Part shown: piece after piece, positions 1 to 35,496 of the stretch
Layout of the letters: the number at the start of each line of letters is the position of its first letter
Numbering within the stretch: position 1 is the stretch's first letter
Virus record (IMG/VR): IMGVR_UViG_3300011114_000127
Location: 1 to 35,496 of that record
Direction: 5' to 3' (one strand)
DNA length: 35,496 nt
Source: a virus
Translations under genes and position numbers: made by a program
The notes under the pieces: generated by a model
What the model was told of the DNA's origin: nothing
Database searches by the model: none
The model's input: the letters and a program-made list of their open reading frames with translations, nothing else

Positions 1-3000
1 ACTTGCGTTCTATCTTTAATCCATACTAAATCAGGTTTAAATTGACCTTGATTAACTGCTGTTAAACCAACTGCATTACCAGCATATAGCGTTGCATCCA
101 TATACTTATTACCTTGCAATATAGTAGGTGTAGGAAGGTTAAATGTGTTTAGTGCTACAAAGCCAGTAGGAGGTGTGTATGAGAATGGTCTTTGACCGAA
201 GTTAAATTGAAACCCTGAACCATTGTAGCTATCATAACAACCTACAATATAAGTTCCTGAAGGCAAACTACTATAAGCTGTGCCTTGACTAACATTGTTT
301 TTGTAAAATGTAAGTGTTCCATTATCCAAGTCTAAAGCAACACCAATAACATCACCATCGGTATAAGATGCTCCATAAGCAGAGGATGAGTTATTGTTAT
401 ACTTATTACCACTATATACATAAGCATATTCATTAGAAGCATAACCAAAGTCAAATGCACTAGATACTGTTTGGCTAAATGGTGATAAAGCCACACCTAA
501 ATTTGCATAAGCAGTTCCTGTTTTAGTCACTTCCCAATACCATTTACCTGATGAAACACCAAATGTTGATGAACCTATGGATGATGCAGTTCCACTAGGG
601 CATACAACAGTTAAATTGCCATTAGATATAGTAGGTGTTGGCGTAGTAGTTCTATATGCAAGTGGGCTTACAACACAATAATTAGCCACAGTCGCACTTG
701 TATTAGTAGGCACGTCTGTCATAGCATCATACGTTGTGCCAGATGTTAAGCTAATATTGTTACAAGTCCAATTATTGCCATTAGGCGATGAGTCATAGCC
801 TAATGTTGTAGTGGATGTTGTGTTGCCAAAGGTTAAGTAGAAACCATTAGTGCCGTATGTGCCTTTATATTGGATAGGTTTCCATACACCATTAGCGTCA
901 TTGTTGCCAAAGTAATATGGTTCTAGTGCTTGACCGTCAATGAAGTTAATGTCAGCCATGTAGCCGTCAAAGTATTCAAAACCTGACCAACCTGCACCAA
1001 TAGAATTGTTAGCGTTTGCACTTGTTAATTGTGAAGCAGCATTTTGTGATGGATAGTTTGCAGTTGAAAAAGCAGTTACTTGGTTACCATTAACATACAT
1101 TTTAACTCTATTAGCCGCAGTAGCTTGTGTTGTATCTATTGCAATTACAATGTGATACCAAGCTGAAGGGTCACGAAATACTTGTGTTGATGTTAATGCG
1201 TTATTTGCTGCACCACCAAATTCAACTTTTAAATTGTCATTAGTAAAGTTAATTTCTGTAGAGTTAGCTGAACTTCCATCATAGCAACCCATTAATCTAT
1301 AAGTTGCTGAACCACTTAATAGACCTCTTTTTACCCATGCAGAGAATGTTTGTATTTTATTGTTTGTGCCTGTAGTTGCAAATGTTCTTGATAGTCTTGC
1401 ACTCGCACTACTTCTAAACCTTAAAGAGTTGTTTAGGTTATTTGTTAATGGTGTTAAAGCACCTGTAGAAGTAAATGTGTGGATAGTATTACCACCTGAT
1501 GTAGTGACTAGACCACCGTTAAATATTTGTGAGCCAGCGTATGAGATAATAACGATACCGCTACCTCCATTACCTGAAGCAAATACCGCTGAAGTTGATC
1601 CTGTTCCACCTGAACCACCTCCTGTGTTTGGTGTTCCATTTCCACTAGAGCCACTACTACTTGTTCCATCAGAGCCACCTCCTGAACCACCCGTTCCAGC
1701 AGTGGAATTAGAACCACCGCCACCGCCACCAGCATAATAAGTAGCTGTGCCTGATATAGATGATTGAACACCTATACCTCCATTACCAGCAGCAGTTCCT
1801 GATCCATTTCCACCTACAGCACCTGCGCCACCTCCGCCACCACCACCATATGCAGAGGCTGCTCCTGAACCTGTTCCGCCATTGTTACCTTGACCTGATG
1901 TTCCTAAACCACCTGATGTATTATTTCTAGCTCCACCGCCACCTGAACCGCCATCTAAACCACTTCCTGATGTAGATTGTCCTGTTCCTCCACCACCGCC
2001 TACTGAAGTAAGTGTTGTAATACCTGTGCCTGATAATACGCTATTACTACCATTATTTCCACGAACAGAGTTAGTAGTAATACCTGCTCCACCAGCACCG
2101 ACTGTGACTACATAAGTTGCGCCTGAATAAATAGTTGTTGAGCCTGTTTGTAATCCTCCAGCACCGCCACCACCACCAACGCCTACACCACCTGAACCAC
2201 CACCAGCTACAACTAAATAACTAGCTGTAATAGGTGTAATAGGGCTTAATGTGCCTGAAGATGTAAATGTGTGTATTTGTTTACCACCAGAAGTAGTAAT
2301 TGTGCCACCTACGAATTTAGGTGTAGCAGATGTGTAAGATATGATGACTATGCCTGAACCGCCACTTGTTTGATATGTAGAATTTCCACCACCAGCTCCA
2401 CCGCCTGTATTAGCAGTTCCTGATGTAGCTGTTGCTTGGTTAGCTGAACTTCCTCCATTACCGCCACCACCAGCACCGCCTGTTCCAGCAGAACCTAATC
2501 CGCCATTACCTCCGCCGCCACCAGCATATGTTACGCTAGAACCTGAAATGCTAGATGCAGTTCCTGCTCCGCCATTACCGCCATTTGATCCGCCTGCTGA
2601 ACCTGCCGCAGATGCACCACCTCCGCCGCCACCTGTGTAAGGTAATGAACTATTACCATTTCCACCTGCGTTACCTTGTCCTGAAGTTCCTGCACCACCA
2701 GCGTTAGGTGAACCTCCTCCGCCACCACCACCACCTGAACCACCTGATGCACCTGAATATCCACCAGATGAGCCACCTGCACGACCACCACCAACAGAAG
2801 TAACAGTAGTTAAACCTGTTCCTGAAACGGATGAATTAGCACCATTTGTTGTATAAGCACCACCAGCACCTACTGCAATAGAATAAGTATTTAATGTGGA
2901 TAATGTAAACGTAGAAGTTTGAAAGCCACCAGCACCTCCACCGCCTGATGAATCATTGTTGCCACCACCACCACCAGCTACAACAAGATAAGAAGCAGGG

Positions 3001-3077
3001 ACATTGTTAGCTGATCCGCTAACTAGCATACCAAAACCTCTAGCTGCCTCTACTGCTATTCTTGATAATAGTGACAT
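1..3077 (-). CDS. Long glycine-rich tail fibre / adhesin, N-terminal part (cut by window edge)
   Basis: An open frame of 1025 codons starts at the ATG at 3075-3077 behind AGGAATAGTTA and runs off the window. Domains in order: a short N-terminal segment (residues 1-26, MSLLSRIAVEAARGFG...); two tandem glycine-rich modules (about 27-255 and 284-520), each opening with SYLVVAGGG and closing with GSGIVIISY followed by an IHTFTS strand; a LamG/concanavalin-like domain (about 545-735, with FSAWVKRG, WYHIVIAID, VKMYVNG); a SPRY-like domain (about 812-962, with GKWYWEV, GDVIGVALDLD, LTFYKN); and the start of a DUF7483-like repeat (PDLVWIKDRTQ). Such fibres bind surface glycans or proteins on the host. 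This is the last leftward gene before the window edge. Its missing C-terminus is most likely the fragment at 34739-35496. The family call is firm; receptor specificity cannot be read. Confidence 0.88.
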   Translation of the reverse strand, partial: MSLLSRIAVEAARGFGMLVSGSANNVPASYLVVAGGGGGNNDSSGGGGAGGFQTSTFTLSTLNTYSIAVGAGGAYTTNGANSSVSGTGLTTVTSVGGGRAGGSSGGYSGASGGSGGGGGGGGSPNAGGAGTSGQGNAGGNGNSSLPYTGGGGGGASAAGSAGGSNGGNGGAGTASSISGSSVTYAGGGGGNGGLGSAGTGGAGGGGNGGSSANQATATSGTANTGGGAGGGNSTYQTSGGSGIVIISYTSATPKFVGGTITTSGGKQIHTFTSSGTLSPITPITASYLVVAGGGSGGVGVGGGGGAGGLQTGSTTIYSGATYVVTVGAGGAGITTNSVRGNNGSNSVLSGTGITTLTSVGGGGGTGQSTSGSGLDGGSGGGGARNNTSGGLGTSGQGNNGGTGSGAASAYGGGGGGGAGAVGGNGSGTAAGNGGIGVQSSISGTATYYAGGGGGGSNSTAGTGGSGGGSDGTSSSGSSGNGTPNTGGGSGGTGSTSAVFASGNGGSGIVIISYAGSQIFNGGLVTTSGGNTIHTFTSTGALTPLTNNLNNSLRFRSSASARLSRTFATTGTNNKIQTFSAWVKRGLLSGSATYRLMGCYDGSSANSTEINFTNDNLKVEFGGAANNALTSTQVFRDPSAWYHIVIAIDTTQATAANRVKMYVNGNQVTAFSTANYPSQNAASQLTSANANNSIGAGWSGFEYFDGYMADINFIDGQALEPYYFGNNDANGVWKPIQYKGTYGTNGFYLTFGNTTSTTTLGYDSSPNGNNWTCNNISLTSGTTYDAMTDVPTNTSATVANYCVVSPLAYRTTTPTPTISNGNLTVVCPSGTASSIGSSTFGVSSGKWYWEVTKTGTAYANLGVALSPFSQTVSSAFDFGYASNEYAYVYSGNKYNNNSSSAYGASYTDGDVIGVALDLDNGTLTFYKNNVSQGTAYSSLPSGTYIVGCYDSYNGSGFQFNFGQRPFSYTPPTGFVALNTFNLPTPTILQGNKYMDATLYAGNAVGLTAVNQGQFKPDLVWIKDRTQ

Positions 3078-3086
3078 TAACTATTC

Positions 3087-5720
3087 CTACTTAAATTGTG
3101 TTTGTGAAGCAAATACTGTAAATGTAGCTGAGCCTGTTTTAACAATCGTGTATGAGTAAGCATCAATTCCTGAAGCATTACCACTTGACCATGCTGTGCC
3201 ACCTTGATATTTAGGTGTGACAGATGAACCGTCAATAGTAACCGCATTATTATAGTATGCAGTTGCACCTTGTGTGACTAGGAATACAACAGTCATGGAT
3301 TGACCTGTAGCCATAGCTGTGTTTAATGATGTGCCACTTGATGCTCTAAAGTTTACAGTCCAATTAGCACTAGCATTTGTTGTGTAGTAAAGAACTGATT
3401 GTGTAGTTACATCGTAGTTAATAGTGCCTGTAGCCGCAGTTGCAGATACCGTCACTACTTCAGCTGCGTTTGTAAATACAGCCGCTAAAACACTAGATGA
3501 TCCGCTAAATGTTTGTTGAGCAGTAAACGTATTAGCTACGTTTGTCACAGGAATATTAGCCGCAGCTAATGATGTTGCACCTGTGCCACCGTAAGATGTG
3601 CCTAATGGGTTAGTTGGTGTCAAGCTAGTTGCGGTTAAAGCGCCTGTGCTTGGATTAAATTGGAATTTAGTAGAGCTTACATATTCAGTCGTTAATGAGC
3701 CTGTGGTAACTGAAGTGAATAGTGGGTAACGAGTTGCATTGGTAGTTGTGTCGTCAGTAATTGCTAAACCTGTGCCAGCAATTGTAATAGAACCTGCACC
3801 ATTAGTAATTGAGATGCCTGAACCTGCTGTTAATGTAGCGTTTTTCCAATATCCTGCTACAGCGTCATAAATTAAAGTTTGACCTGAAGCTAATGAAGTA
3901 AATTGAACATTAGAGTCTGTGCCACCTAATGCAGAGCCAGGATAAAGATTAACAGTAATGACGCCACCACCTGCTGAACCGCCTTTGCTACAAATAGCTA
4001 CTTGAGCCTTAACATTAGGTGCAGAAGGTTTAGTATTAGTTAATCCACCTGTAACGCTTGGGTTATACCAAAGAATATCGCCATCTGCAAATCCTGTGGT
4101 ATTTACATTGTTTAATACACCTGCTAATTGAATAAATCCAAAGGCATTTAAAGCTATTGATTCTGCGGCTACACCAAGAATATATGTGCCGTCTGTAATG
4201 CCTGTTGCAGGTGCGCCTGTTAATACGCCTGAAGCACCTACTGCTCCTGTGAGCATAATCACTTGACCTTTGGTGATTGCAGAACTAGCTTTTACATATA
4301 CATACTGATCCTCACCAATATGTTGAGTTATATTACCACCTGCCATGCCATAAGCTAAAGAATTGTTTGTAGAATCCCAGCCTAATTGACCTGCTGTGAG
4401 CGCAGTTGCATAAGATGTATTAAATGTAATGAAATTAGGTGTTGCAATACCGCCTGTTAAGCCTGTTAAAGACGTAATATTAGAATTAGCACCTGAATTA
4501 GCCTTATTATTAAATGTATTCCAATCAGTTGATGATAAATAGCCGTTTGTTGATGTTGTGGCTTGTGAAATACTGATATTAGGAGTTGTGCCACCACTTG
4601 ATGATAGTGGTGCAGAAGCAGTAACGCTTGTCACACCTGTTGAAGCTGGTGCAGACCATACAGGTAAACCGCCTGTTAGTGTTAAAACATAGCCGTTTGT
4701 GCTAGGAACTAAAAATGATGTAGTGCCAGCCGCAGATTGATAAGGTAATGCACCTGTTACACCACCACTTAAATTAGCTGATGTGGTAGCTGAACCTGCT
4801 GTCGTAGCAGTTCCTGCATTTCCTGTAATACTTCCGTTAATAGTTGTTGATACAGTTAATCCTGTTAATGTGCCAACGGTTGTGATTCCTGTGTAAGAAC
4901 CTGATAAATAGCTAGAACCTATTGTTCCACTTGTAATTTGATTGCCATTAATTGATATATCTGATGCAGATAGTGAGGTTAATTGACCTTGTGCGTTAAC
5001 TTGTGCAGTTAAAGTCTTACTTGCAGAGCCATAAGAACCTGCGGTCACACCTGTATTTGTAATAGAAAATTGTGTGCCTGTTAAAGTTAGGCCTGTGCCT
5101 GCTGTATAACCTGCCGCAAATGAAAGATTAAAGAATTGGATTGGTGTTACACCTAATGTTCCTCCAGGTTGAGCCGTGCAATACCAAGCTGTTGTGGCTT
5201 GACCGCCTGATTCAATATAAATGATAGCACCTTCGTATTCAGACCATGTATCTGCACTTGGCGCTCTAGACCAAGGGCCACTTGATACGGTATAAATTCC
5301 GTTTTCAGATAAAGTTGATTGATTCTTTACTAAAACTGTGTTTCCAGCCACAACTGATACAGTATCAATCGTTTGTAAGCCTGAAAGCGTAATATTTACT
5401 GTTGTTGCAGCGTTTGCTGGTGGTTTCCATGAAGCACCTGCGACTGCATAATCTACATATTGTTTGTTTGCAATGTCAGTAGAGCCTGTTGGAGTAGCGT
5501 CTACTTGACCTGATAAAAAGTGACCTGTTGATGGTGTTGTAGCACCAATAGTCGTGCTATCAATCGTGCTATTTGTTATGTGTAAACCTGATTGATATGG
5601 GTCAATTGAAGCAAAGAATGGCTTGTTCTGCCCAATAAAAGTAACAAAATCACCTGTAACCGTAAAATACGCTTGAACAGGTAGTAAATTCTGAACGGTA
5701 GATTGAGCAGGACTAGTCAT
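3087..5720 (-). CDS. Tail fibre protein (877 aa)
   Basis: The protein is rich in Gly, Ser, Thr and Ala, as in trimeric beta-structured fibres. The first 60 residues are probably the virion-attachment part. Next come an IGATTPSTGHF motif and a TDIANKQYVDYAVAG motif, both recurrent in phage fibres, then a domain with TVLVKNQSTLSENGIYTV (about 127-205) that is common at fibre N-termini. A later region (about 470-600) beginning QYVYVKASSAITKGQVIM and ending GGGVITVNLYPG is another recurrent fibre domain. YLSSTDWNTFNNKA is a fibre-shaft motif. No S74 chaperone domain is seen at the C-terminus. The start ATG follows AAGGAAATATA, the ribosome site style used through this structural block. It lies 9 bp upstream of the second long fibre gene, so the two probably form a branched or stacked fibre. 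These domain names are from memory of phage fibres, not a search. Confidence 0.85.
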   Translation of the reverse strand: MTSPAQSTVQNLLPVQAYFTVTGDFVTFIGQNKPFFASIDPYQSGLHITNSTIDSTTIGATTPSTGHFLSGQVDATPTGSTDIANKQYVDYAVAGASWKPPANAATTVNITLSGLQTIDTVSVVAGNTVLVKNQSTLSENGIYTVSSGPWSRAPSADTWSEYEGAIIYIESGGQATTAWYCTAQPGGTLGVTPIQFFNLSFAAGYTAGTGLTLTGTQFSITNTGVTAGSYGSASKTLTAQVNAQGQLTSLSASDISINGNQITSGTIGSSYLSGSYTGITTVGTLTGLTVSTTINGSITGNAGTATTAGSATTSANLSGGVTGALPYQSAAGTTSFLVPSTNGYVLTLTGGLPVWSAPASTGVTSVTASAPLSSSGGTTPNISISQATTSTNGYLSSTDWNTFNNKANSGANSNITSLTGLTGGIATPNFITFNTSYATALTAGQLGWDSTNNSLAYGMAGGNITQHIGEDQYVYVKASSAITKGQVIMLTGAVGASGVLTGAPATGITDGTYILGVAAESIALNAFGFIQLAGVLNNVNTTGFADGDILWYNPSVTGGLTNTKPSAPNVKAQVAICSKGGSAGGGVITVNLYPGSALGGTDSNVQFTSLASGQTLIYDAVAGYWKNATLTAGSGISITNGAGSITIAGTGLAITDDTTTNATRYPLFTSVTTGSLTTEYVSSTKFQFNPSTGALTATSLTPTNPLGTSYGGTGATSLAAANIPVTNVANTFTAQQTFSGSSSVLAAVFTNAAEVVTVSATAATGTINYDVTTQSVLYYTTNASANWTVNFRASSGTSLNTAMATGQSMTVVFLVTQGATAYYNNAVTIDGSSVTPKYQGGTAWSSGNASGIDAYSYTIVKTGSATFTVFASQTQFK

Positions 5721-29591: not shown

Positions 29592-30350
29592 TTATTGTCC
29601 TAAAATGCGACTTAATGCAAATGTGTTTCCTGCGTTTTGTAAAGCACCTGACCATGCGTTAGCTGCACCTACTTGACCAGCCGCTTGAGCTGCTGCGCCA
29701 CCTGTAGCTAAATTAGCCACATTAGTTCCATAGTTTTGAGCGGCTTGATTTACTTGTTGTTGTGAAGTTTGACCAATACCTGCAATACCAGCTAAAGTAT
29801 TGTAAATATTGCCACGTTGTGTTTGAAATTGATTAAACGCATTACCATAGGCATTTTGTGCAAAGTTTTGAGTGTAATCTTGCATTCCTTGTAGCGCATT
29901 ACCGCCTACAAGGCCTCCTAGCGCATTTTGTTGACGGCTTAAGGCTTGTTGCCCTTGTCCTAACTGAAATGCGTAATTAGGCGCTAAATATTGGTTTAAG
30001 TCCTGATTGGTAAATTGTTGGGTAAGGTAACCTGTTCCCATACCTGTTCCAATTGGTTTGCCTTCTGCGTCATATTTAGTATATTGACCTGGCATCATTG
30101 CGCCAATTTGATTTAGTGCGGTATAACCTGTGCCACGATATGGAGCTTGTTGTGCATTTTGTATGTCAAAGATTTCTTTTTGAACGCGAGCCTGTTGAGC
30201 TGCTGCATCGGCTTGAATTTGAGCTGCATCCTCTGCCGCACCTGCTGACATAGCACCGCCAATAAGCGAACCACCAACCATAATAGCGGCTGAAAATGGA
30301 TCGTTATAGCCTGGATGTTTTAAAATACCTACAAATCTTGGATTAAACAT
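29592..30350 (-). CDS. DNA transfer protein, P22 gp7-like
   Basis: 252 residues, Ala/Gln/Gly-rich. An N-terminal hydrophobic glycine segment (AAIMVGGSLIGGAMSAGAAE, 21-40) is typical of gp7-like ejection proteins. A helical AQIQADAAAQQARVQKEIFD follows, then YRGTGYTALNQIGAMMPGQY, and a Gln/Asn-rich C-terminus (QQQVNQAAQNYGTNVANLAT). It likely leaves the virion with DNA and helps span the envelope. It overlaps the previous GNAT-like gene by 8 bp and has AGGTGTAATT ahead of the ATG. Confidence 0.8.
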   Translation of the reverse strand: MFNPRFVGILKHPGYNDPFSAAIMVGGSLIGGAMSAGAAEDAAQIQADAAAQQARVQKEIFDIQNAQQAPYRGTGYTALNQIGAMMPGQYTKYDAEGKPIGTGMGTGYLTQQFTNQDLNQYLAPNYAFQLGQGQQALSRQQNALGGLVGGNALQGMQDYTQNFAQNAYGNAFNQFQTQRGNIYNTLAGIAGIGQTSQQQVNQAAQNYGTNVANLATGGAAAQAAGQVGAANAWSGALQNAGNTFALSRILGQ

Positions 30351-30714
30351 AATTACACCTATCGCATTTTAAATAAAGTCTGTCCTGATCCTCTTTTTCT
30401 ACTTCAAAACCAAGACGTTTACAGAAGTTAATACCTTTTTCATTGCTTTTCATAACACTTGTTCTAGCTGAACCATATATGTCAATTGTTTTTCTTAATG
30501 TATCTCGCAAATGCTTTCTAATAGTAAATTTAGGTTTTTTAGAATAGCCTATATGCAATTCGTTTTCTTTTACCATAACAGCACCAATTACATCGTCACC
30601 TTCTTTAAGTTCTACAAACTCCCAATCTTGCATAGCCTCTGCAAATTGTTCAGGTGTTATCTTTAATCTGTCTTTTATAGACAAATATATAGCATTTATA
30701 GCTTTATTACTCAT
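30343..30714 (-). CDS. GNAT-like acetyltransferase-fold protein
   Basis: 123 residues. The strand-helix pattern DDVIGAVMVKENELHIGY (about 39-56), IRKHLRDTLRKTIDIYG (65-81) and ARTSVMKSNEKGINFCKRLGF (83-103) matches the GNAT fold, including the conserved N-x-G--f---lGF end. The CoA-binding Q/RxxGxG/A loop is not obvious, so catalysis is uncertain. GNAT-like proteins occur among virion genes of T7-like and P22-like phages. It is sandwiched between a small tail protein and the gp7-like gene. Confidence 0.72.
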   Translation of the reverse strand: MSNKAINAIYLSIKDRLKITPEQFAEAMQDWEFVELKEGDDVIGAVMVKENELHIGYSKKPKFTIRKHLRDTLRKTIDIYGSARTSVMKSNEKGINFCKRLGFEVEKEDQDRLYLKCDRCNYV

Positions 30715-30943
30715 TATAATACGGAATCTTAAACGGCTTACCGTTAACTGTTACATTAATAAATCCTGCTGGTCTAGCAGGTAACGTTGCTGTTCCTGTA
30801 GTTGCTGTTTGTGAACTACTAAAATTAAGCAAGTTTAAAAAGAATTGTTGCCAAGCACGAGTTGGTCTTTTAGTCGTAGAATCTAAAAATTCAGTCTGTG
30901 GGTAAGGATTTTGCTGACTTGTGCCGTAAATATTAGTAGCCAT
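30707..30943 (-). CDS. Small tail-region protein (78 aa)
   Basis: MATNIYGTSQQNPYPQTEFL leads to a conserved-looking KRPTRAWQQFFLNLLNF, then a Thr/Ala linker and a C-terminal strand (GFINVTVNGKPFKIPYY). The TR-WQQFFlNL motif recurs in short proteins next to gp10-like genes in many phages. It is stop/start-coupled (TAATG) to the gp10-like gene. Probably a minor virion protein. Confidence 0.72.
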   Translation of the reverse strand: MATNIYGTSQQNPYPQTEFLDSTTKRPTRAWQQFFLNLLNFSSSQTATTGTATLPARPAGFINVTVNGKPFKIPYYNE

Positions 30944-33057
30944 TAATTTTCACCTACAGTAGCTTTTAGATTAGCAGATATTATAACTGCATTTATAGGG
31001 TCTGTAACTACTACTTCATAAACTCTATCTCTAGCCCAACCCAATCTGCGCCAAATAGCACGATTTTTATATTGACCAACTTTACCAATAGAAGTCCAAT
31101 GTTCATAAGACCAAGTAGAGCCACCGTCATCTGACCAACGAAGCATGGCTTGTGGTGTTTGACCTGGATCAGATTGGTTTCCTACGCCTGGTTGGAATTG
31201 TATTTGTAATTCCTCTAAATATTGACGTTGTAGGTCTGAAACAATATGTGGCGCTCTGCGTAATCTACGAATCTCACCACCATTGTCGGTATAGTTATTA
31301 GGGTCTAATAAATAGATTTGACCGTTAGAATGATCGCCTACATATACTTTGCCTTGGAATACAGCAGAGCAATTACCACGGTGTCTATGATAAGTATTGG
31401 TGGTATCTACCCATAACCATTTGTGCCACATTCCTGTAGATAAGTCATATACCCAAGTTAAATCTAATGTTGGAAATGAAACCACATAACATTCGTGACC
31501 TTCTTGTTGATAAGTCCAAGCTACTGCATCATCTATATATTTATTTAATAATGTCTGTTCTACGGCATGAGTTGAAATGCGAGTAGGAACATAACCTTGC
31601 ATTTGCATAATTTGAGCTTCACCACGATTGTTTCTAGATACATAAGCAAAAGAGTTGCCTAATCTAGACATTGAGAATTTAGCTGCAATACCGTGTTGTG
31701 TATTAGTGCCTGGAATACGTTGGAAAGGGAAAGGGAAAGTTCCTACGTCAATCCATACTTCAGATGAAGTTTCACCTAATAAAAATACTTCACGATTAAC
31801 TACAATTAAAGATACTAAATTATCAGGCGCACCGTCTTTAGATGAAAAGCTTAATGCTGGCGTAATAGGGCTTAAAGGATTTGAAGCTGCCCATTGTTGA
31901 GAGCTAGGTTTATTAAATACAAAATAATTATCTACAATATCAACAGTATTGCCACCTGAAAATGCACCGTCAGATGAAGGTAAAATGCTGAAGTTTAGCG
32001 CATACATTGTGCGCGAAGTCACAGTTTGACTTGTGCTTATAACGTAATTACCTGTGCTACCTGATCCTGTTCCAAAGGTAAGCGTTAAGGTTAATCCTGT
32101 GCCTGAACCGTTTGATGACGTAGAAACATTGTTAGCAGGAGTAGATGTATAGTTACCTGCATTAGTTTGAGTTAAGGTTGTAACTGCACCGCTTCCACCA
32201 ATAGCCGTAACTGTATAAGTGGCAGGCGTTGTGCCATAAACACCACCTAATACGGTTACAGTATCGTTTACAGCGTATCCTGTGCCTGCTGTAGCAATTG
32301 TGTGGCTTAATACTGTGCCTGAACCTAATGCTGTAATCATAGTATTAGCAGTAACAGTAGAACCTTGAATAGTTTGACCTGGATATAAAGTGCCTGTATT
32401 GGCAGTAACTGTTAAAGTTGTGCCTGACATTGAAGCTGTTAATACTGAAGCTACAGCCGCAGAGTTCATTAGAGTAGAAGTTACAGTTTGGCTTAAATTA
32501 ACTGAATATGTGCCTACACCACCTGTTGTGCCTGTTAATTGACCTGTAATAACAGTTTCATTGGTTACACCTAAACCAAATAAAGCTTGATTAGCACTAA
32601 TTGTGCCTTGATTAACTGTTGTGACTGTTAAAGTAGTGCCTGAAATAGAACCTGTAAATAAAGCGCTTGAAGGATTAGATATGCGCCATGTATAACGATA
32701 TGACCCATCTACAATATAGACATTGACTCCGTTATCAGTAATACCTACACGACCTGTTGAAGTATTTAATTGGCCTACTAAAGTTGGAGTTAAGTCGCTA
32801 GTTAAAACATATACATATTGACCAACTACCGCCACCATGTATAAACCGCCTGATACAGTTCGCATACCACGAACAGATTGAGCATTTTGGAAAGTAATTT
32901 TTGAGGATAAGCCAGGTGTTGGATATAAAGAAACAACGCCTCTTTTACCCTCACCTTTTAATGGATCAATTTCAGGTCTAAAGTTAATGCACTCCTGCCC
33001 ATCTTGATAGATGGAAGGTGCTTCATAACTAGGGCCTACAAATCCAAAATCAGCCAT
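30943..33057 (-). CDS. Tail accessory factor, P22 gp10-like, with large inserted domains
   Basis: 704 residues versus 472 in P22 gp10. Family segments: N-terminal GPSYEAPSIYQDGQECINFR (8-27), SLYPTPGL, TDNGVNVYIVDGSYRYTW (107-124), then after the insert LPSSDGAFSGGNTVDIVDNYF (359-379), QQWAASNP, EVFLLGETSSEVW and GMWHKWLWVD. Residues about 132-356 are an insertion: one SGTTLTVT...GTYSVNLSQTV copy (132-199) and a second (206-352) that is itself split by a GTGYAVNDTVTV...LTLTLTFG domain (about 249-329). Removing the insert leaves about 479 residues, near the P22 length. It seals the tail between gp4 and the needle. Stop/start-coupled to neighbours. Confidence 0.9.
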   Translation of the reverse strand: MADFGFVGPSYEAPSIYQDGQECINFRPEIDPLKGEGKRGVVSLYPTPGLSSKITFQNAQSVRGMRTVSGGLYMVAVVGQYVYVLTSDLTPTLVGQLNTSTGRVGITDNGVNVYIVDGSYRYTWRISNPSSALFTGSISGTTLTVTTVNQGTISANQALFGLGVTNETVITGQLTGTTGGVGTYSVNLSQTVTSTLMNSAAVASVLTASMSGTTLTVTANTGTLYPGQTIQGSTVTANTMITALGSGTVLSHTIATAGTGYAVNDTVTVLGGVYGTTPATYTVTAIGGSGAVTTLTQTNAGNYTSTPANNVSTSSNGSGTGLTLTLTFGTGSGSTGNYVISTSQTVTSRTMYALNFSILPSSDGAFSGGNTVDIVDNYFVFNKPSSQQWAASNPLSPITPALSFSSKDGAPDNLVSLIVVNREVFLLGETSSEVWIDVGTFPFPFQRIPGTNTQHGIAAKFSMSRLGNSFAYVSRNNRGEAQIMQMQGYVPTRISTHAVEQTLLNKYIDDAVAWTYQQEGHECYVVSFPTLDLTWVYDLSTGMWHKWLWVDTTNTYHRHRGNCSAVFQGKVYVGDHSNGQIYLLDPNNYTDNGGEIRRLRRAPHIVSDLQRQYLEELQIQFQPGVGNQSDPGQTPQAMLRWSDDGGSTWSYEHWTSIGKVGQYKNRAIWRRLGWARDRVYEVVVTDPINAVIISANLKATVGEN

Positions 33058-34046
33058 TATCTAAAGAATCCGCCTGTTAATATCCAGCCTGCGTCTTTTT
33101 GACGGCTAGATAATAGTGCGTCATTAAACCTAGCAGATTGCATAGGTTTCATATTGGTGCGTTTTAATGTAGATTTACCTTGTGCAGCAAACGCTGTAAT
33201 CATAGCTATTTGCGTTTGTGAGGCCTTGCCATACATAGGCATCAAACGTTCAGCTAAACACCAACGTAGCGCCATTGTGTAGCCTTGTGGAAGGTTTATA
33301 TCGTCATTAATAGAGTCGTAGTTTCTAAACAAGGTTTGAGCAAACATATGGATTTCACCTTGAGCAGGATTAGGCCATACAAATACGTTACCTGAATCAG
33401 AGTTAGGATTGAAATATATGGCTTTTGGCCATGGGCCATTTAAAGTCTTTAATCCAATCATGTTGTAGTCATCCAAAGCTAAAATAGCGATTGGATAGTC
33501 TAATCCACCGTTTACAATAGGCTGACCATTAGAATTTGTATTGATACGAACATAAGCGGAGTCAATTCCAAGAGGCTTTTGGTAGTAAGCTTGAATAAGG
33601 GTAGATGCAACAGGGCTTGAATAAGTAACATTAAGTAAATATGTTCCTGCATAGTTTACGTTGCCTCCTGCACCTGTTAATTCATCTAAAATACGAGTGC
33701 CAGCAACAATACCTGTGCCTGATAATGTTTGACCTTGTGCAACTGCACCTGAAGTAATACCTGTAACGGTTAACACATTACCTGTAATAGAACCTGTAAA
33801 TTTTGCGCCAATAAAGTTAGGTGATGCGTGATTAGGGCCAATAGTGTATTGAACTTGACCTGCAATGACAGGCCATATAATTTCAGTTGTATTAAAGACA
33901 ATCATGTCCTCATTTGACCATTGGTCAATCATGTCATTTAGCATATCAAATGCGTCTTGAGCCTCCTCTGCCGTTGGAGTTTCACCTGATGCTAAAGCAC
34001 CGATGTCTTTCATGGCTCTTGATATGATGTCTATTGGTCTTGGCAT
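33057..34046 (-). CDS. Tail accessory factor, P22 gp4-like, with inserted domain
   Basis: 329 residues versus 166 in P22 gp4. Family segments: [20 protein letters not shown] (7-26), [18 protein letters not shown] (27-44), then [19 protein letters not shown] and [20 protein letters not shown] later. An insert at about 82-155 ([20 protein letters not shown]... [18 protein letters not shown]) has the same repeat pattern as in the gp10-like protein. gp4 binds the portal and starts tail assembly; P22 gp4 also has muramidase activity, which cannot be read here. It ends in TAATG overlap with the gp10-like gene. Confidence 0.88.
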
Positions 34047-34738: not shown

Positions 34739-35496
34739 TTATCTTGCGTTAGCGTTTTTAAATGGGTTTTCTGCAAATGCTGCGTAGATGTATGTAGTGC
34801 CATTTGCATTAATTTCACCATTACTATCTCTTAATTTAAACCCATTAGATACAAAGTCTACTGGGTTAATGGTTGCATTAGTTGCTGCAGATGAATTAGC
34901 AAGTAGTCCTTCATTTGCTACATTATATGTATTTCTAGATGTATCTAATATCCACCAATTTACCACAGCATTACCTTTAATCATTACATATTTAGGTCTA
35001 AAATTTGTAAACACAAACGGCCCATCCGCACTACCATTGCCTGTGTAGCTTCCAAACTTGGAAAACCCTGCTATTTCTGCCCAGCAATAGGCTACAATAG
35101 TATATCCATTACCGTTGACATTAGCAGATGAACCTGCAACAGAGAATACAGTTGAAGTAGGTGTTGTATTATTCCATGCTCCATCAGTTGCGGCGGCATT
35201 AGTTAAATTTAACCAAACAGACTGTGTATTTCCTAATGAAGCATGATATGTAACATGGTTTAAACCAGCATTATTTCTAACAAATGTAACTATCATTTTT
35301 GGTGCAACACCTAATCCATGACCTACTGTAGCATTAGCACCTGTCCCTGTATAAGTCACCACACTAAACCCAGCAGTTGTGTTTACAGATACAGTAGATG
35401 TAATAGAACCACTTGTGTTAGATGATGTTGAGCCTTGACCAGCTTGCCATTGCCAGCCTACAAAGTTATCGCCATTATTATTTACAACACCTGTTC
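34739..35496 (-). CDS. C-terminal part of tail fibre (DUF7483-like repeats; cut by window edge)
   Basis: An open frame enters from the right edge with no stop and ends at 34739, giving 251 residues plus a partial codon. The frame begins TGVVNNNGDNFVGWQWQAGQ and contains two DUF7483-like units: TAGFSVVTYTGTGANATVGH, GLGVAPKMIVTF, then FSKFGSYTGNGSADGPFVFT, NFRPKYVMIK and DFVSNGFKLRDSN, ending YIYAAFAENPFKNANAR. A GTG at 35362 is inside the repeat and is not a real start. The best explanation is that this is the end of the fibre gene cut at position 1. The protein is normally the host-contact end of the fibre. Confidence 0.85.
   Translation of the reverse strand, partial: TGVVNNNGDNFVGWQWQAGQGSTSSNTSGSITSTVSVNTTAGFSVVTYTGTGANATVGHGLGVAPKMIVTFVRNNAGLNHVTYHASLGNTQSVWLNLTNAAATDGAWNNTTPTSTVFSVAGSSANVNGNGYTIVAYCWAEIAGFSKFGSYTGNGSADGPFVFTNFRPKYVMIKGNAVVNWWILDTSRNTYNVANEGLLANSSAATNATINPVDFVSNGFKLRDSNGEINANGTTYIYAAFAENPFKNANAR

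Follow-up and report, generated by a model that had tools for sequence, protein, structure and literature searches.

Two adjacent tail-connector genes of an uncultured short-tailed phage, encoding a hub and the adaptor beside it, carry insertions of one and the same beta-module, twice in the hub and once in the adaptor, and the second hub copy is itself split by a nested module of another kind. The window, meaning the whole stretch of DNA analysed (35,496 nucleotides), corresponds to positions 1 to 35,496 of IMG/VR record IMGVR_UViG_3300011114_000127. On balance, we favour a stepwise, vertically inherited insertion of shareable beta-modules into surface loops of the tail connector, which would have built a nozzle at the tail tip and a collar.

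Identity of the hub and adaptor

Both open reading frames described in the first-pass annotation were recovered on the minus strand at the same coordinates. The hub (30943..33057, minus strand; 704 aa) is a P22 gp10-like head closure protein (Hc3) that, by profile and model, consists of a seven-bladed propeller and a platform together with an insert. In profile searches it matches phrog_578 (head closure Hc3) at an E-value of 8e-101, and a profile built from the hub core retrieves P22 and Sf6 gp10 at 1e-18. Gene order, with the hub beside the adaptor, is likewise shared with P22 and Sf6. The adaptor (33057..34046, minus strand; 329 aa) was identified by profiles and model as T7 gp11/SU10 gp11-like with a dock region, and matches Pfam SU10_adaptor (E-value 1e-7, 32.8 bits, for a cut-off of 27) and phrog_12985 (profile search, E-value 3e-43). 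Here, the earlier description as P22 gp4-like needs correcting with regard to size, as the core retains a beta dock region like that of T7 and SU10 adaptors. It is this region that leaves the adaptor with about 255 aa once its insert is removed, as against 234-238 aa in relatives lacking the insert. The helix bundle and beta dock region are common to T7 gp11, SU10 gp11, and the window adaptor, though the clade of the latter has an additional module A, in one or two copies, within the dock region. A similar beta dock region occurs in the Moo19 and N4 adaptors, but P22 gp4 is without one.

Modular composition of the inserts

The whole hub insert spans residues 131-354 (31996..32667, minus strand) and lies within one propeller blade, between the strands at 120-125 and 356-359, according to alignment and DSSP of the model. 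About 225 additional residues had been claimed for the hub, and in fact some 220 (about 131-354) are lacking in 8/8 annotated phages (hubs of 473-528 aa), while about 480 aa remain after their removal, very near the 479 first proposed. The P22 gp10 hub, with about 472 aa, has nothing in this loop. Module A is a beta-module of 64 residues, whose first hub copy occupies residues 134-197 (32467..32658, minus strand). Its second copy comes in two parts, residues 206-248 (32314..32442, minus strand) and 330-351 (32005..32070, minus strand), and so the first-pass description of a doubled module with a split second copy proved accurate. Between the two parts is the nested module B (GTGYAVNDTVTV...LTLTLTFG; residues 249-329; 32071..32313, minus strand), which has 81 residues, is unlike module A, amounts to an 84 aa insertion relative to the plain two-copy relatives, and gives weak profile matches to phrog_9703 and phrog_32129.

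In the adaptor, module A covers residues 83-151 (33594..33800, minus strand) inside the beta dock region. The roughly 74 extra residues noted there at first sight appear as a clean insertion at about 80-153 in the alignment with annotated phages, being absent from P26218, DSL-LC05, MW202557, PAE2, and phiAX1. The Manatee Spring phage genomes MW202674 and MW202520 share it. A stretch of similar appearance at this site in Xanthomonas phage PBR31 was not picked up by the module profile. That one domain is found in both proteins was borne out by BLASTP of the hub insert against the adaptor insert (44% identity, E-value 1e-9), as well as by the independent profile phrog_21413, which matches both (E-values 8e-11 and 2e-11), and judged from these comparisons, the likeness exceeds chance. 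Adaptors of 398-414 aa with two tandem module A copies are encoded at loci L017, L019, L021, L024, L148, and L189, where the second copies form a group of their own.

Predicted structures and position of the inserts

AlphaFold models of both proteins were calculated as monomers rather than as a hexamer. The hub model has a mean pLDDT of 81, with values mostly of 84-95 in the insert, about 70 in part of module B, and low in residues 1-44 and 600-704, such that the platform is uncertain; for the adaptor, the mean is 83, with 81-95 in the insert. Structural comparison of the hub model with P22 gp10 (8eap_D) gave a Z-score of 36 and 3.4 Å with 417/471 residues aligned. Similar Z-scores (32-36) were obtained with P22/Sf6 gp10-type hubs generally, and lower ones (22-24) with the SU10 nozzle and the crAss001 muzzle. 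Thus, in the model, the hub insert is an addition to the P22 gp10 fold rather than a part of the protein core. It is flanked by strands 105-125 and 356-359, and by strand count would fall between the third and fourth strands of blade 3, provided that 49-55 is taken as the velcro strand closing the propeller, as in T7.

In T7, the "bottom opening" is a loop of blade 3 (about residues 146 to 281) that leads to the nozzle tip (PMC6702177), while the SU10 nozzle domains are located between blades 2 and 3 (PMC9509320). For crAss001, IG1 lies between blades 2 and 3, IG2 in blade 3, and the crass domain is nested in IG2 (PMC10172136). Moreover, the insert of the window hub starts at residue 131, near the corresponding positions in crAss001 (163) and T7 (about 146). 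Taken together, strand count and published descriptions suggest, if indirectly, that the hub insert may occupy the same blade opening as the nozzle and muzzle domains of T7, SU10, and crAss001. The SU10 gp17 and T7 gp12 nozzles share the propeller core of the window hub, though we detected no sequence relation between their inserted beta domains and the window modules, the number of modules differs, and no rearrangement is known for the window hub. The crAss001 gp44 muzzle resembles the window hub in having tandem inserts at blade 2/3, the second with a domain nested in its loops, but crAss001 is far larger, and what its IG1, IG2, and crass fold share with modules A and B is so far a matter of arrangement.

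The adaptor model places the beta dock strands at 52-69 and 158-238, and superimposes on Moo19 (9d80_B) with a Z-score of 10.8 over 215/234 residues, whereas just 111 residues could be aligned with P22 gp4 (8u10_m). The structural matches of module A (8eci_1, 9n71, and EF-Tu domain II) have Z-scores of 6-7, a range typical of common arrangements and too weak to name a fold, and the match lists for the hub were filled by propellers and barely probe the fold of its insert. The nozzle domains of SU10 are Ig-like; for module A, Pfam gave no Ig match, and a profile search against solved structures with 40 module copies returned no relative and two chance matches only.

Distribution among relatives

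When IMG/VR was scanned with alignments of the hub, the adaptor, and the module, 225 loci were obtained and, from these, 142 distinct complete hubs, a set that favours close relatives of the window, so that its counts are not frequencies. Two further scans with distant members added 116 distinct hubs from outside the clade. Neither an insert at the hub site (0/116) nor module A (0/116) was found among the latter, which vary only at a second site, and the hub insert is thus a derived trait of the clade to which the window belongs. At both the hub and adaptor sites, homologues differ in whether the insert is present, and it is not carried at equal length throughout the family. Within the clade, hub length ranges from 489 to 1058 aa. 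Hubs of 473-530 aa among the 142 have an empty site, and those of 620-632 aa have two plain copies. Hubs of 652-674 aa also have two copies, of which the second is weak or escapes detection in some cases, and their second-site loop is longer; from 700 aa up to the maximum of 1058 aa, further modules are present. A chimeric assembly was ruled out as the source of the arrangement, which is common to more than 100 contigs from different samples.

A tblastn search of the modules against annotated phages gave almost no matches, probably because of the BLAST low-complexity filter, and this absence is not evidence. Module A was also seen inside a phrog_376 tail protein (L193, 366-2357) and a phrog_3287-like virion protein (L227, 3428-4684), both possibly hub-type proteins of other phage lineages.

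The second variable site in the window hub is the 8 aa stretch NQSDPGQT following FQPGVG (residues 627-634; 31156..31179, minus strand). In many relatives (L124, L202, L037, L352, L385, and others), the loop is 23-101 aa long and often made up of three quasi-repeats, for example SPYIIYPNATFTIGPFQTYVIG, AVAGTAIAGIAIAG, and TESDDYLITENGDYLIAE. Here, we noticed a resemblance to the pseudo-threefold, three-tryptophan fibre dock loop of SU10. The long second-site loop, which the window lacks, may thus be a better candidate for fibre docking than the inserts. The 1058 aa hub of L043 has diverged modules at the first site, and its second site is occupied by a 354-aa insertion.

Order and mode of gain

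A tree was computed from the hub core columns only, after 15 hubs lacking clear landmarks had been set aside; the long L043 hub aligns poorly, and its state is uncertain. On this tree, empty and insert-bearing states require 2 changes, compared with a mean of 18 after shuffling, and no loss of the hub insert was seen inside the clade. Every module copy in an adaptor or hub (338/338) has as its nearest neighbour a copy at the same site in another genome. Recent copying between both genes of one genome was considered and rejected, with hub-adaptor similarity being 0.51 within genomes and 0.49 between them. Because nearest copies are same-site ones and within-genome copies are no closer than those between genomes, the insertions are old and inherited, and the comparison of module copies gave no sign of ongoing exchange between hub and adaptor genes.

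Counting states in clade genomes with both genes complete, we found 20 with one module copy in the adaptor and an empty hub site, and in those with the hub insert, the adaptor has one copy in 109 and two tandem copies in 5. Six outgroup genomes have no adaptor module. As genomes with an empty hub site already have the adaptor module, gain in the adaptor preceded gain in the hub. The hub copies are about equally similar to the adaptor copy and to copies in unrelated fibre, spike, and tail proteins.

Compared with the plain two-copy hubs, copy 2 has received extra modules at three of its loops. In 31 hubs, loop 243 (after ITA) holds module B (about 84 aa), the module also nested in the window hub; loop 205-213, the first hairpin turn of copy 2, holds modules of 88, 128, or 263 aa; and loop 262, near the end of copy 2, holds two more A-like copies (137 aa). 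These three classes need 3, 5, and 3 changes, respectively, among the tree rows, from which it follows that nested modules were gained or lost several times. In L014, an extra segment is found in copy 1 at the loop matching that of copy 2.

Proposed function and alternatives

Among short-tailed phages, the hub varies from a small plug in P22 to a very large muzzle in crAss001. Hubs of this kind are arranged six-fold and the adaptors twelve-fold. In our proposal, module A would first have entered the dock region of the dodecameric adaptor in an ancestor. In one of the lineages descended from it, two tandem copies would then have been added in the distal propeller opening of the hub, and copy 2 would later have accepted further modules at three of its own loops. 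In the hexameric hub, the inserted domains may project from the tail-distal face and create a six-fold nozzle or skirt which, like the T7 and SU10 nozzles or the crAss001 muzzle, would touch the host envelope and help to position and open the tail at ejection. The twelve adaptor copies could likewise form a collar beside the fibre docks. It is the position of the inserts, together with the known ring symmetries and the nozzle and muzzle comparison, that favours a nozzle or skirt at the tail tip plus an adaptor collar. The initial view that these adaptors normally only seal the tail is too narrow, as the T7, SU10, and crAss001 hubs carry nozzle or muzzle domains and the T7 and SU10 adaptors dock fibres. 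Decoration of the tail surface, as suggested along with it, is plausible in itself, though the position of the inserts points to the nozzle and collar role instead.

Selection on the inserts was estimated by the Nei-Gojobori method, comparing the hub with four close relatives and the adaptor with five. In the hub, dN/dS is 0.06-0.26 for the insert and 0.06-0.17 for the core, and in the adaptor, 0.24-0.51 and 0.03-0.12, respectively. With values well below 1 in all inserts, the inserted domains are maintained by purifying selection. The adaptor insert changes more rapidly than the adaptor core, as would be expected of an exposed part. This faster evolution would also suit modules that act as adhesins, i.e., weak accessory receptor-binding domains on the tail that bind host surface polysaccharide directly. 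We regard this as unlikely, even though module A is likewise found in proteins of the tail fibre and spike types (matches to phrog_38233 and phrog_30742; the tail fibre of Sinorhizobium phage phi3LM21; L213, L225, and L220), given that many phage structural proteins for which no binding is known contain T/S/G-rich beta-modules and that searches of Pfam and solved structures gave no lectin or carbohydrate-module match above cut-off, the only carbohydrate-module match being CBM_35 (E-value 0.07, 13.9 bits, below the cut-off of 28).

Less likely still is a role of the modules in docking trimeric tail fibres or spikes. The adaptor module does lie within the dock region, where T7 and SU10 adaptors hold fibres, but the hub family has a separate dock candidate in its second-site loop, the nesting of unrelated modules fits poorly, and a comparison of low power showed no association between the hub insert and a large gene following the hub. 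Replacement of an adjacent tailspike gene by the hub insert was also considered and dropped, with no association with a gene of at least 350 aa between the hub and ejection genes among few informative pairs. Finally, although the wide length variation (620 to 1058 aa) and the many different modules nested in copy 2 would be expected of near-neutral hitch-hikers at permissive loops, conferring at most particle stability or weak stickiness, this explanation is about as improbable in view of the low dN/dS, the absence of hub-insert loss in the clade, and the retention of both module A copies in about 110 hubs.

Returning to the nozzle and collar, we tentatively raise the further possibility that in one P22-type lineage the hub, at first nozzle-less, has been acquiring a nozzle as shareable beta-modules were inserted again and again at the opening used in T7, SU10, and crAss001, with new modules nesting in the outermost domain. 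If so, this lineage would preserve intermediate steps by which muzzle-like tail tips arise. The clade displays graded states (empty, two modules, nested, and several nested) at one loop of one protein, which opens the growth of tail nozzles to step-by-step study, and domain shuffling is seen to extend from receptor-binding proteins to connector proteins. Neither inserted nozzle domains nor the sharing of beta-domains among phage proteins is in itself new. What is new, as far as the searched literature shows, is the occurrence of such domains in P22-type hubs, in graded and nested form at a single site, together with the order in which they were gained; no prior paper on nested modules in such hubs was found in a search whose coverage excluded most subscription journals. 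In the sections of the domain mosaicism survey drawn on here (PMC10684548), Ig-like and accretion domains are described as shareable beta-domains in several unrelated phage proteins, and nozzles are not discussed. Unlike the domains in those sections, the window modules keep to fixed sites of connector proteins, where they are passed on by descent instead of being reshuffled often.

Other features of the genome

A large glycine-rich, fibre-like open reading frame (3-3077, minus strand) runs off the start of the contig, and the C-terminal part of a DUF7483 protein (34739-35494, minus strand) runs in from its end, which together suggest that the genome is circularly permuted and, at about 35.5 kb, near-complete. 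After the hub comes a 123-aa GNAT-like open reading frame (30343-30714) with a weak match to phrog_308, an internal virion protein family, and small open reading frames of similar size follow the hub in many relatives. Elsewhere, an 877-aa open reading frame (3087-5720) matches head decoration and tail fibre profiles both.
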